From Vulcanimicrobiota bacterium (GTDB lineage: Bacteria; Vulcanimicrobiota; Vulcanimicrobiia; Vulcanimicrobiales; Vulcanimicrobiaceae), in the NCBI GenBank assembly GCA_013036105.1, contig JAAXCX010000001.1:62001-126000 (forward strand): a stretch of 64,000 nucleotides of DNA, written 5' to 3'. This document shows positions 21,994 through 62,206 of this stretch, in pieces. Position numbers and translations under genes: made by a program. The notes below the pieces were generated by a model that searched no databases, was not told the DNA's origin, and saw only the letters and a list, made by a program, of their open reading frames with translations. Within the stretch, counting starts at the first letter, position 1; every line of letters starts with the position of its first letter.

Positions 21994-22275
21994 TTAGAGC
22001 GGAACGCGCAGGCGCTGGCCCGGAATGATTGGCGCGCTGCCGAGGTGGTTCACTTCGGCGATGCGATCGATCGTGTCTTGGACGTCGGCGCTGCGGGTCG
22101 TGTGCGTCGCGGCGATGGCCCAGAGCGTGTCGCCCGGTTGTACGACGACGGTCGCATAGTGCTGAGCGCCGGCGGCGTACAGATGCATGCTGGAGAGAGC
22201 CGGAACGGTGACCATAAGGCTCAGCACGGCAAGCATGATGGCCGGCATGAGGGTGAAACGTCTGCGGTTGGTCAT
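21994..22275 (-). CDS. LysM-domain membrane protein divergent from lexA, YneA-like SOS division inhibitor candidate
   Basis: A 93-residue protein with one hydrophobic N-terminal segment (about residues 9-35, anchor or signal peptide) and a C-terminal LysM domain: YATVVVQPGDTLWAIAA ... RIAEVNHLGSAPIIPGQRL. This is the size and layout of Bacillus YneA and resembles the LysM gene beside lexA in actinobacteria (Rv2719c, DivS region); both are SOS-induced and slow cell division. Like them it is divergent from lexA. A perfect Gram-positive-type SOS box lies 30 bases upstream of its ATG. GAGGAAG precedes the start. Function is inferred from architecture and location only. Confidence 0.8.
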   Translation of the reverse strand: MTNRRRFTLMPAIMLAVLSLMVTVPALSSMHLYAAGAQHYATVVVQPGDTLWAIAATHTTRSADVQDTIDRIAEVNHLGSAPIIPGQRLRVPL

Positions 22276-22304
22276 GGCTCTTCCTCGCTCTCTCTATGTT
22301 GTGC

Positions 22305-22318
22305 CGAACGGGCGTTCG
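22305..22318. promoter_or_regulatory. SOS box 1 (LexA operator), proximal to the LysM gene
   Basis: CGAACGGGCGTTCG matches the Gram-positive LexA consensus CGAAC-RNRY-GTTYG at every position and is nearly palindromic. It lies 30 bases upstream of the LysM-gene ATG on the other strand, where its promoter should be. Confidence 0.85.
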
Positions 22319-22344
22319 TGAACTAGTATACCCATATTTTGTGG

Positions 22345-22358
22345 CAAACGCCTGTTCG
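22345..22358. promoter_or_regulatory. SOS box 2 (degenerate LexA operator)
   Basis: CAAACGCCTGTTCG matches the LexA consensus with two deviations (A for G at position 2, C for a purine at position 8). It lies between the other two boxes, 27 bases downstream of box 1, and may help LexA bind cooperatively. Confidence 0.5.
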
Positions 22359-22386
22359 TCCCCTAGATTTTACCACACCCGCTTGC

Positions 22387-22418
22387 TTGAGTGTCAATGG
22401 GCTTCGAACGTATGTTTG
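22387..22418 (+). promoter_or_regulatory. lexA promoter overlapped by SOS box 3
   Basis: TTGAGT at 22387-22392 and TATGTT at 22411-22416 are 18 bases apart. CGAACGTATGTTTG at 22405-22418, a full match to the Gram-positive LexA consensus, covers the -10 element. LexA bound here would block RNA polymerase, giving the usual autorepression. Confidence 0.7.
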
Positions 22419-22503
22419 CCTTCAAATCGGATTTATGGTACGTTTGTAACCGGCCCAAGTGCCATATGTATGGCATTTTGCTGTGGGTCAGGGGGCTTTT
22501 GGC

Positions 22504-23109
22504 ATGGAGGGAGCAACCGAGCGCCAGCGGCGCATCCTCGAGGTCATCGAAGAGTTTCGGGCCGAGCGGGGCTATCCGCCGTCGGTCCGCGAGATCGGTG
22601 AGCGGGTCGGCTTATCGTCGTCGTCGACGATTCACGCCCACCTCAAGACGCTCGAGCGCCGTGGGTACATCACCCGCGATCCCACGAAGCCGCGCGCGTT
22701 GCGCCGGGAAACGCCCAGTGGAAATCCGCCCGACAGCGTGGTTATGCCGATCATCGGCCGCGTCGCGGCGGGCGTTCCGATTACCGCTCAAGAGAACGTC
22801 GAGGGTGAATTCGTTCTGCCGGCGTCGTTTGCGCCGCGCGCATCCGATGCATTCATGTTGCGCGTTCAGGGCGACTCGATGGTCGGGGCGGCGATATTGG
22901 ATGGCGACTTAATTTTGGTCCGGCCCCAGCCGTCTGCCGAAAACGGCGAGATCGTGGTGGCCATGGTCGACGACGAAGCCACGGTGAAGCGCTTCTATAA
23001 GGAAGACGGGCGCATTCGTTTGCAGCCGGAGAATCCGCAGATGGCGCCAATCTTCTCGAACGATGTCACCGTCGTCGGACGCGTCGAAGCCGTCGTCCGT
23101 AAGATCTAA
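22504..23109 (+). CDS. lexA: LexA SOS repressor/autoprotease
   Basis: A 201-residue LexA. The N-terminal winged helix (residues 4-65) reads RQRRILEVIEEFRAERGYPPSVREIGERVGLSSSSTIHAHLKTLERRGYI. The self-cleavage site is Ala89-Gly90 in VAAGVP, and the catalytic pair is Ser125 (GDSMVGA) and Lys162 (ATVKRF). It represses SOS genes until RecA filaments trigger cleavage. The start at 22504 follows a CAGGGGGC site and puts the helix at the usual position; an upstream ATG at 22459 would add unrelated residues. Three SOS boxes lie upstream. Confidence 0.97.
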   Translation: MEGATERQRRILEVIEEFRAERGYPPSVREIGERVGLSSSSTIHAHLKTLERRGYITRDPTKPRALRRETPSGNPPDSVVMPIIGRVAAGVPITAQENVEGEFVLPASFAPRASDAFMLRVQGDSMVGAAILDGDLILVRPQPSAENGEIVVAMVDDEATVKRFYKEDGRIRLQPENPQMAPIFSNDVTVVGRVEAVVRKI

Positions 23110-23157: not shown

Positions 23158-24231
23158 GTGCGCGAGAGCTTGCCGCGCAGCTTCTTTGCGCTCTTGGCGG
23201 CTATTCCCGTATTCATGCTCTTTGGAAGCGGCTCGTTCTTGCAGCGGCTGGTCGCCGCGGAGCTGCCCGGATTTGGGGTTATGGCCGCCGCACTGGCGGC
23301 CATACTCGCTTATCGTCTTGCGCTGCACTTGCGATTGATGCGTCTTCTGCTCGTGAGCGCGACGTGCGCGGCTTTTTTACTTGCGCTGCCGCAACCGATC
23401 GATCTGTCGCGGCCGCTCGCCTACCTAAATCTCGTCGGGGGAACCGGTTTATTCTTGGCGATCGGGTTGGCGCTCGTCATCGCAGGCGCCGCGGCTGTTG
23501 GGCGCCGACTCGGCCAGGCCGGAGAAATAGGCGGCGTCGCAATTGTTCTCGCCATATTTCTGGCAGCTTTTCTCTTGCACTACTCGCCGGCGAACGCCGC
23601 GGCCGCGGCGCTACACCCATTGGGACGGCTTGGTGATTCGTACGGCGCGCTGATGCTGGTGGTGACCTTGGAAACATTGCTGTGGACCGTGGGCGTTCAC
23701 GGTCCGGCAATGCTCGCCGCCGTGGTCACGCCGCTGTACTTGGCGCTGCAGCGGCAGAACACCGATGCGTTCTTGCATCACGCGCCGCTGCCGCACATTG
23801 TGGTCGTCTCGCTGTTTCTGTTCGTCTTTCCCGGCGGTGCAGGTGCGACGCTGCCGGTGGCATTTTTACTGCTGTTCAGCCGCGCCCCGCGCCTGCGGCT
23901 GCTTGCGCGCGCAACGGTCGGACCGGCGCTGTGCAACATCAACGAGCCGCTGCTATTCGGCCTGCCGATCGTCGCCAATCCGTTTCTCGTCGTGCCGTTT
24001 GTCGGCGTGCCGCTGATAACGGCAACGATCGCGTATTTCGCAACGGCGAATAACTTCGTATCGCGCGCCTACACGTACATGCCCGGCATCGTGCCCGCTC
24101 CGGCTGCGGCTTATCTCGCGACGCTGGATTGGCGCGCAGTGGTATTGGTGCTCTTCAATATCGCATTGGCGACCGTGGTGTACTTGCCGTTCGTGCGCGC
24201 TTACGAACGGCACGAGGCGGCGTTGCCGTGA
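23158..24231 (+). CDS. Orphan PTS EIIC-family sugar permease
   Basis: A membrane protein of about 357 residues with roughly ten hydrophobic segments. LETLLWTVGVHGPAML and NINEPLLFGLPIVANPFLVVPF are signatures of the lactose/cellobiose-type EIIC domain of the phosphotransferase system. No EIIA, EIIB, HPr or EI gene lies nearby, so it may work as a non-phosphorylating transporter or with partners encoded elsewhere. The start is uncertain: the frame is open back to the lexA stop (CTG at 23110), and the extra residues, LLASLRAFGDLPALIAVRES, look like a real EIIC N-terminus. It overlaps the next gene by four bases (GTGA). Confidence 0.8.
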   Translation: MRESLPRSFFALLAAIPVFMLFGSGSFLQRLVAAELPGFGVMAAALAAILAYRLALHLRLMRLLLVSATCAAFLLALPQPIDLSRPLAYLNLVGGTGLFLAIGLALVIAGAAAVGRRLGQAGEIGGVAIVLAIFLAAFLLHYSPANAAAAALHPLGRLGDSYGALMLVVTLETLLWTVGVHGPAMLAAVVTPLYLALQRQNTDAFLHHAPLPHIVVVSLFLFVFPGGAGATLPVAFLLLFSRAPRLRLLARATVGPALCNINEPLLFGLPIVANPFLVVPFVGVPLITATIAYFATANNFVSRAYTYMPGIVPAPAAAYLATLDWRAVVLVLFNIALATVVYLPFVRAYERHEAALP

Positions 24232-60246: not shown

Positions 60247-62206
60247 GAAACTCCCTCTCCCGACTCCCTCGGAGGCCGCGTTCGAGCGTCTCTTAGAAAG
60301 CTTTGACGCGACGCCCGTCGTCCTTCGACAAGCTCAGGATGACAATCAAGAAGAGTCCATTGACGACTTCGTGGCGCGCATGTTCGCGCAGCAGAAGAAG
60401 TTCTTGGAGCGCGATGCGTTTGCCGGAATCGGCGAGCGCGATGCGTTTCCGACCAAGATCATGGGCGTTTCGTTCGAGGGGCGGCAAGACGTCGCAGCGG
60501 GCATCGTACCCGGCGTCGATCTGCAGCTCGAGCGCGAGCCGGCAAACCCGTTCGACGCAAACGCCATCGCCGTGCGGTATGGTAATCTGCAACTCGGGTT
60601 CCTGCGCAAACAGATAGCCAAACATCTGGCGCCGCTGATCGATGCGGGAATCGCATACGGCGCCCGCGTCGAGCACGTAACCGGCGGCACCGGCGGCAAG
60701 AATTTCGGCGTGAATATCCGCGTCTTTCGCGTGCAAAGCAACACCCTCGATGCGTTTGCAGTGCAAGCGCGCGCTCAATCCGATCACGCGAGCATTCGCC
60801 GGGCGCTCATCGGCGAGTCGGAGATGCACAAAGCGCAGCGCGACGTGCTGGCGCGGCTCGAGGCCGGAAAAAATACGCTCGCCGTCATGGGAACCGGTCG
60901 CGGCAAGTCATTTTGCTTTCAATACCCGGCCGCGTACCGCGCGCTCGAGTCGGGTCAAAAAACCTTAGTGCTCTACCCGCTGCGCGCGCTCGCCAACGAT
61001 CAGTACGAAGCGCTCAAGCGCCGGCTCGACGGATTCGGCTTGCGCATTCTGCGCGCGAACGGCGCCATTGGAGCAGAAGAGCGCGCGCATTTGATGTCGT
61101 CGCTCGAATCAGGCGACTGGGACATCATTCTGGGAACGCCGGAATTCTTGCAATTCCACCGTGACGCGTTCACGGGAAAAAGCGCGCCCGGTTTGCTGGT
61201 CGTTGATGAAGCGCACCACGCGTACGAATCCAGCCACCGGCCGGCGTATGGAAAATTATCGGCCACGATCGCGTTGCTCGGCACACCGCAGGTCTTGGGT
61301 TTAACCGCAACGGCGCGCGACGAAGCTTTCGGTCACGTCGTCGCCGAGTTGGGAATAAACGCGTGGGTGATCGATCCGTCCGTGCGCGAAAATCTGCACG
61401 TCGTCGACGCGCGCGGCACGAAAGATAAGCTTCGTTATCTGCGCGACACTTTGGCCGGAAGCGGAAAAGCGATCGTCTATTGCAATTCGCGCACCGAAGT
61501 ATCGAAGGTCGCCGACGGGCTGCGCCGCGATCTCGGCGCGGGCGTCGTGTTCTACCATGCCGGAATGCCGGCCGCCGACCGCGCAGACGTCGAAAAATAT
61601 TTCCGTTCGGGCGAGCTGCGCGCGGTCATCGCCACGTCGGCCTTCGGCGAGGGAATCGATCTTCCCGATGTCCGCAACGTGGTGCTCTATCACCTCAACT
61701 TTTCGTTCACCGAATTCAATCAGCAGGCCGGCCGCGCCGGCCGCGACGGAGACCCTGCGCACATCCATCTGCTCTTCGGCGAAAGCGACCGCCGCATCAA
61801 TGAGTACATCATCGATCAGGAAGCGCCCACCATCGGCGTTTTGCGCGAGCTCTACCGCGGAATCCGCGGGTTGTCTCAGGACGGCGTCGTCCGCATGACG
61901 CAAGGCGATATCGCCGATACCCTGCAGTTCGATAAGGTCAGAGAACGGACGGTGGGCGCGGCGTTACGCATCTTCGAAGACGAGGGACTCATCGAAACGG
62001 GCATCGACGACGACGGGCGCTTTGTCCGTTTTCTGCCGGCCTCGGGAAAAATCGACCTGACGCGCAACGAACGCTTCGCTGAAGGGGAAGCCGAGCGTGA
62101 GAATTTCGCGAAGTTCAGCGACTTCGTCCTCACCTCCAAAGCCGAAACCCTCGAACGTATTGTGAATCGTCCGATTTATCCGCAGGGTCAACCGCTCATT
62201 CGCTGA
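60224..62206 (+). CDS. HIRAN-RecQ-type DNA helicase
   Basis: A 660-residue superfamily 2 helicase. A HIRAN domain (about residues 76-170; TKIMGVSFEGRQDVAAGI, REPANPFDANAIAVRYGNLQLGFL) precedes the RecQ-like core: Walker A MGTGRGKSFCFQYPAA (about 222-237), DEAH at 328-331, GLTATARDEAF, IVYCNSRTEVSKVADGL, ATSAFGEGIDLPDVRNVV and QQAGRAGRDG. HIRAN binds 3' ssDNA ends at stalled forks, so this is probably a fork-repair helicase. A winged-helix-like C-terminus follows; no RQC zinc cysteines or HRDC domain were seen. Residues 32-41 (VVLRQAQDDN) are translated from a dispersed repeat in the N-terminal tail. Confidence 0.88.
   Translation: MTRSAKNRKLPLPTPSEAAFERLLESFDATPVVLRQAQDDNQEESIDDFVARMFAQQKKFLERDAFAGIGERDAFPTKIMGVSFEGRQDVAAGIVPGVDLQLEREPANPFDANAIAVRYGNLQLGFLRKQIAKHLAPLIDAGIAYGARVEHVTGGTGGKNFGVNIRVFRVQSNTLDAFAVQARAQSDHASIRRALIGESEMHKAQRDVLARLEAGKNTLAVMGTGRGKSFCFQYPAAYRALESGQKTLVLYPLRALANDQYEALKRRLDGFGLRILRANGAIGAEERAHLMSSLESGDWDIILGTPEFLQFHRDAFTGKSAPGLLVVDEAHHAYESSHRPAYGKLSATIALLGTPQVLGLTATARDEAFGHVVAELGINAWVIDPSVRENLHVVDARGTKDKLRYLRDTLAGSGKAIVYCNSRTEVSKVADGLRRDLGAGVVFYHAGMPAADRADVEKYFRSGELRAVIATSAFGEGIDLPDVRNVVLYHLNFSFTEFNQQAGRAGRDGDPAHIHLLFGESDRRINEYIIDQEAPTIGVLRELYRGIRGLSQDGVVRMTQGDIADTLQFDKVRERTVGAALRIFEDEGLIETGIDDDGRFVRFLPASGKIDLTRNERFAEGEAERENFAKFSDFVLTSKAETLERIVNRPIYPQGQPLIR
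60320..60345 (-). repeat. Dispersed repeat copy 7, in frame near the helicase N-terminus
   Basis: Plus strand GTCCTTCGACAAGC then TCAGGATGACAA, the exact reverse complement of the family consensus. It is translated as VVLRQAQDDN before the HIRAN domain. Confidence 0.8.

Follow-up and report, generated by a model that had tools for sequence, protein, structure and literature searches.

A small gene lying divergent from lexA in a member of Candidatus Eremiobacterota, a diderm phylum, encodes, with a probability that we put at about 0.78 from sequence comparisons, an FtsW-type inhibitor of division that is SOS induced and of the same kind as YneA and ChiZ. A whole class of diderm bacteria would then possess a brake on division after DNA damage of the Gram-positive type. 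Whether the YneA/FtsW mechanism can operate within a diderm envelope could be tested on this case, and the clear promoter architecture of the locus is a handle for tracing the history of the lexA-linked checkpoint. No published account of the lexA/LysM module in this phylum was found among open-licence PubMed Central papers.

The window, i.e., the whole stretch of DNA that was analyzed (64,000 nucleotides), spans positions 62001 to 126000 of contig C1 of a 2.34-Mb genome in 29 contigs. The window LexA is 96 to 99% identical to LexA of named Candidatus Eremiobacterota genomes, and by this measure the host is a member of that group. The original prediction held that the genome also encodes an outer membrane, and we found the TonB receptor in the window to be real (PF00593, 45.4 bits; cut-off, 27) and recovered matches to Omp85/BamA (75.3 bits; cut-off, 24) and LptF/LptG (162.6 bits) genome-wide. 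BamA and lipopolysaccharide genes are published for WPS-2 (PMC6664022). The presence of genes for outer-membrane assembly and lipopolysaccharide export supports a diderm host.

The anchor-plus-LysM protein predicted to be divergent from lexA was recovered as an open reading frame with a hydrophobic segment and a PF01476 match, and its neighbor as lexA (Table 1). The window LexA retains the AAG cleavage site and the motifs of the Ser/Lys dyad (AAG, DSM, and VK were all located). Three exact boxes matching CGAACRNRYGTTYG lie between the two genes; the LexA boxes of Bacillus subtilis and Staphylococcus aureus are given as CGAACN4GTTCG (PMC9578287). A perfect box before each gene and a weaker third between them had been predicted. 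Exact sites are indeed present before both genes and between them, but only the LysM-proximal box has perfect CGAAC/GTTCG arms, while the lexA-proximal one, like the middle one, carries GTTTG. The predicted LysM promoter sits between boxes 2 and 3.

Table 1. Features of the lexA/LysM locus, with positions counted in the window
Feature	Coordinates	Strand	Remarks
LysM gene	21994..22275	-	93 aa; predicted SOS-induced division inhibitor of the YneA/ChiZ kind
LexA box 1	22305..22318		CGAACGGGCGTTCG, exact; perfect palindromic arms; in predicted LysM 5'UTR
LexA box 2	22345..22358		Reverse strand CGAACAGGCGTTTG, exact; just downstream of LysM -10, over predicted start site
Predicted LysM -10	22367..22372	-	TAAAAT
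Predicted LysM -35	22392..22397	-	TTGACA
LexA box 3	22405..22418		CGAACGTATGTTTG, exact; adjoins LysM -35, overlaps predicted lexA -35
Predicted lexA -35	22416..22421	+	TTGCCT; overlaps box 3; 17 bp upstream of predicted -10
Predicted extended -10 of lexA	22436..22444	+	TGGTACGTT
Inverted repeat/stem-loop	22460..22475	+	TGCCATATGTATGGCA; near start of predicted lexA transcript
lexA	~22504..23109	+	TIGR00498, 235.7 bits (cut-off, 110.95)

A survey of lexA neighborhoods in related genomes had been proposed together with the prediction. Our first survey covered 60 relatives, 55 of them in the class; a lexA match was obtained in 51 of these 55 and none in the other 4, and the LysM gene was retained, divergent from lexA, at all 51 loci. 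At least two boxes (with at most one mismatch) were present at every one of the 51 and at least three at 18, and the boxes bracketing the LysM promoter were 57 to 63 bp apart at 49. The GTTTG arm of the lexA-proximal box, determined by reading the aligned sites, was common to all. On the LysM strand, TTGAC followed by a 17- to 19-bp spacer and TANNNT occurred at 51 of 51 class loci versus 1.2% of shuffles (TTGAC alone, 51 of 51 versus 19%), and the extended -10 of lexA, TGNTA, was found at a matching offset in all 51 leaders. Judged by these motifs, the LysM gene has a near-consensus sigma-70 promoter at all 51 loci.

For lexA autoregulation alone, one or two boxes are commonly needed. The boxes could accordingly serve lexA only, with the LysM gene a bystander outside LexA control, yet we regard this as very improbable: box 2 covers the predicted LysM start site and box 3 adjoins its -35, in a spacing kept at 49 of 51 loci, and the LysM neighbor was never lost. 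On this retention and the promoter geometry, the bystander gene was rejected as a candidate. The predicted LexA control of both genes, by comparison, agrees with the operators and promoter geometry conserved at the 51 loci.

The pairing extended to a wider listing of the class, in which lexA and the LysM gene were adjacent on one contig in 48 of 49 further genomes with both matches, as judged by eye from the coordinates; the exception (G077) was split by a contig end. Three genomes (G086, G098, and G114) had a strong lexA match and no LysM match, and in each the contig ends shortly upstream of lexA; the remaining sequence includes the boxes in all three and, in G086 and G098, also the beginning of the LysM protein. 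Three others with weak or partial lexA matches (G069, G091, and G103) were left out of the count. In the set of named genomes, the pair was present at 24 of 25 Eremiobacterota-like loci (L193 to L217), and the remaining one was cut by a contig end.

We then determined the distribution of boxes over the whole 2.34-Mb genome. Since it holds only 10 distinct exact sites, the occurrence of three of them within 240 bp at this locus is far beyond chance. One-mismatch sites numbered 92/93 per strand, compared with 38/43 for a reversed control pattern. The remaining seven exact boxes adjoin (i) an imuA/imuB-type operon, (ii) a class II ribonucleotide reductase, (iii) an Lhr-type helicase, (iv) a small open reading frame plus a methylpurine-DNA glycosylase, (v) an mraZ/lptF-side pair, (vi) a tyrosine recombinase, and (vii) one uncharacterized region. 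The matches of imuA (RecA, 23.6 bits) and imuB (IMS, 21.8 bits) are just below the Pfam cut-offs, and these names lean also on the gene pair. Because several of the exact sites precede DNA-damage genes, they point to a real SOS regulon, and by its sites the genome has a Gram-positive-type LexA regulon, with CGAAC-N4-GTTCG-type boxes before SOS genes. A one-mismatch box, CGAACAGGAGTTCG (G000:C4:11685-11698), precedes ftsY in what looks like an ftsY-recA-recX run (ftsY called by Pfam SRP54, recX labeled by eye), and no box nearer to recA was found at that locus. Chance boxes were dismissed as an explanation on the low genome-wide count (10 distinct exact sites) together with the conservation at 51 of 51 loci.

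Some individual observations deserve mention in their own right. The box at G000:C1:316951-316964 precedes a 137-amino-acid open reading frame without a Pfam match, followed by the methylpurine-DNA glycosylase gene; the two genes possibly form a new SOS operon. An exact box at G000:C6:123039-123052 separates mraZ, with which the division cluster begins, from a divergently transcribed gene preceding lptF/lptG; at 13 of 30 loci, this genome's among them, a box was present within 260 bp upstream of mraZ, versus 0.02 expected from shuffles. LexA may act on the division cluster or on the gene divergent from mraZ; the open-licence PubMed Central literature yielded no paper that connects LexA with mraZ and an SOS box in this way. 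At L084 (G028:C20), a second, shorter LexA-like match covers residues 80 to 198 of LexA only, as would that of a UmuD-type protein.

The LysM protein consists of a basic (arginine-rich) N-terminus, one hydrophobic segment, and a LysM domain at residues 44 to 92 (Pfam PF01476, 43.3 bits; cut-off, 20.9), so that a single N-terminal membrane helix and a single C-terminal LysM domain make up a protein of 93 residues. An AlphaFold2 model built on a 32-row alignment (mean pLDDT, 78) has a helix over residues 10 to 28 and a LysM fold over residues 40 to 92. In a Foldseek search, the best PDB matches of the model were LysM domains, with a best E value of 0.021 and none at E ≤ 0.001. The best named family was NCBIfam NF010723, YneA, in keeping with the predicted YneA-like character, but the score of 54.4 bits missed the equivalog cut-off of 60 bits, which none of the 149 genomes searched in the phylum reached. 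The designation "YneA-like" is supported, and "YneA" in the equivalog sense is not. Second YneA-like matches away from lexA were noted in two class genomes (G125:C32:3274-3495 and G009:C42:169524-169718).

Conservation within the protein was found in both halves. Residues L9, P11, and P25 of the membrane segment were invariant in the 51 class sequences, as were G48, W52, N76, G86, and P92 of the LysM part; in the G-D-T motif of LysM, G48 was kept in 51, D49 in 47, and T50 in 40 of the 51. Comparison of the six genomes of the window's genus (15 pairs) gave pN/pS values of 0.068 in the membrane segment, 0.167 in the LysM part, and 0.061 in the linker. The constraint on the membrane segment equals or exceeds that on the LysM domain. 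A conserved L-Y-A-A motif follows the membrane helix; signal peptidase might cleave there and would then leave a soluble mature protein. The low pN/pS and the invariant L9, P11, and P25 nevertheless favor a functional membrane anchor over a simple signal peptide, and the reading of the segment as a signal peptide only is disfavored on the same grounds.

These features bear on another role for an SOS-induced envelope protein, for example, binding peptidoglycan in the periplasm to protect or remodel the wall while repair proceeds, or assisting a hydrolase. That LysM is the sole domain and that LYAA might be cleaved would suit such a role, and ChiZ of Mycobacterium tuberculosis is reported as a wall hydrolase (PMC3989709). 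We nevertheless think it unlikely, given a membrane segment as constrained as the LysM domain, the lack of any catalytic domain in Pfam/NCBIfam profile searches, and a lexA-divergent position matching that of proven division inhibitors. Such lexA-linked inhibitors are described for Bacillus, Listeria, mycobacteria, and others (PMC6851548, PMC3989709).

As a division inhibitor, the protein would operate as follows. In undamaged cells, LexA would repress both lexA and the LysM gene. Upon DNA damage, RecA would trigger the self-cleavage of LexA, and the strong LysM promoter would fire. The protein would be inserted with its N-terminus in the cytoplasm and its LysM domain in the periplasm; the conserved membrane helix would dock on a membrane protein of the divisome, most probably FtsW by analogy with B. 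subtilis YneA, while the LysM domain would grip nascent septal peptidoglycan and septum synthesis would stop. Once LexA recovered, lexA and the LysM gene would be shut off together. Because the host genome is diderm, a Gram-positive type of brake would here work in the periplasm.

Four FtsW/RodA/SpoVE-family genes were found in the genome. The best of them (C6:112318-113379, minus strand) is ~9 kb from mraZ (C6:122491-122931, minus strand), on the same contig and strand. For B. subtilis YneA, it is described that the membrane helix binds transmembrane segment 7 of FtsW and that LysM must bind peptidoglycan to stop septal synthesis, with D46 and T47 needed for peptidoglycan binding and toxicity and K5, E6, F10, V11, and F14 being the critical membrane residues (PMC13396833). 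We take D46 and T47 to be the same positions as D49 and T50 in the G-D-T motif of the LysM protein; counterparts of the five membrane residues were not evident by inspection. The contact with FtsW is thus an assumption by analogy, the YneA contact residues not being recognizable in this way. Since the LysM motif is kept and the YneA membrane residues are not recognizable, a like action through a target contact of its own seems probable.

Like YneA, the LysM protein combines a single membrane helix with a predicted extracytoplasmic LysM domain in which the G-D-T motif is kept, and its gene lies beside lexA with Gram-positive-type boxes. It differs from YneA in the score below the cut-off, the unrecognizable membrane residues, the diderm host, and a class promoter placed between two boxes ~60 bp apart, often with a third. 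With ChiZ (Rv2719c) and other actinobacterial LysM proteins it shares the orientation divergent from lexA, the boxes between the genes, and the GTTTG lexA-side arm; the actinobacterial open frames, however, are 99 to 331 amino acids long (30 loci listed) and their hosts are not diderm, and unlike for ChiZ, hydrolase activity is not claimed for the LysM protein of the class. By analogy, it resembles SosA of S. aureus, a small SOS inhibitor of division that spans the membrane once and is encoded divergently from lexA, although SosA is without a LysM domain. A looser analogy is with SulA of Escherichia coli, likewise an SOS-induced division inhibitor of a diderm. SulA is soluble, without a membrane helix or LysM. 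It blocks FtsZ polymerization (PMC13396833).

Outside the phylum, we examined 87 strong lexA loci in 72 genomes, all of different families. A LysM open reading frame lay by lexA in 2 of the 72, divergent in both (L101, actinobacterial in look, and L093, Bacillota-like), in a sample of single families that may miss phyla with the pair and in which some flanks stop at contig ends. Named genomes outside the Eremiobacterota-like set had the pair in 1 of 30, a Clostridiaceae genome. In a sample of the actinobacterial phylum (that of G257), 52 of 100 genomes matched the class LysM profile at E 1e-4; among the 30 matching loci listed, 22 also hold lexA, 21 were scored as divergent with boxes between, and a lexA-side box with the GTTTG arm was seen by eye at 19 of the 22. 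The original prediction had likened the arrangement to that of Bacillus and actinobacteria, and the actinobacterial loci and the Bacillota-like and Clostridiaceae genomes bear this likeness out. The lexA-proximal operator, CGAAC[A/G]TATGTTTG, is very similar in the class and in actinobacteria. Because its GTTTG arm overlaps the predicted lexA -35, the likeness may reflect either shared ancestry or shared constraint.

In the other classes of the phylum, the pair was found in 0 of 14 genomes (flanks of ~1.5 kb, some cut by contig ends), a distribution that fits either acquisition of the module by transfer or its loss from the other classes. A LexA tree (122 rows, quick method) placed the class within a 26-row group with an SH-aLRT of 92, the inner forks being open; the group also contains five rows of other classes of the phylum and four rows from outside it, of which two bear LysM and two do not. 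Tentatively, and with odds below even, we suggest that the lexA/LysM checkpoint and the shared operator are older than the split of the diderm class from the monoderm actinobacteria and Bacillota, and that LexA may also act via the mraZ box. If the checkpoint does predate the split, FtsW braking by a LysM anchor would be an old solution, also working in a diderm envelope. Alternatively, a generic LysM gene might have landed beside lexA in the class and converged on a YneA-like layout, an origin that would suit the absence from the 14 genomes of other classes. We find it improbable, in view of the domain order, the divergent orientation, and the very similar lexA-proximal operator common to actinobacteria and of YneA as the top family; the GTTTG arm, possibly forced by the overlapping lexA -35, is not decisive here. 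An independent origin is compatible with division-inhibitor function, and its probability is not additive with those of the other alternatives.

Two observations concern lexA and its surroundings. A stem in the lexA leader was present at a matching offset in 31 of 51 class leaders versus 2 to 9 in control windows; it has 23 different 5' arms and starts ~37 to 46 nucleotides past the lexA-proximal box, and it is possibly a 5'-terminal hairpin of the lexA mRNA. An Rfam search of region 22200-22620 gave no match, and no paper on a lexA leader hairpin was found in the open-licence PubMed Central literature. The pattern TGCCAYN4RTGGCA has two copies in the genome; the second lies beside an HNH-endonuclease-like open reading frame and an apparent tRNA gene (by eye) and is not obviously related. 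Directly 3' of lexA, at 23158-24231, is a PTS EIIC-like gene (PF02378, 69.4 bits), which lactose/cellobiose IIC models match only from ~position 180.
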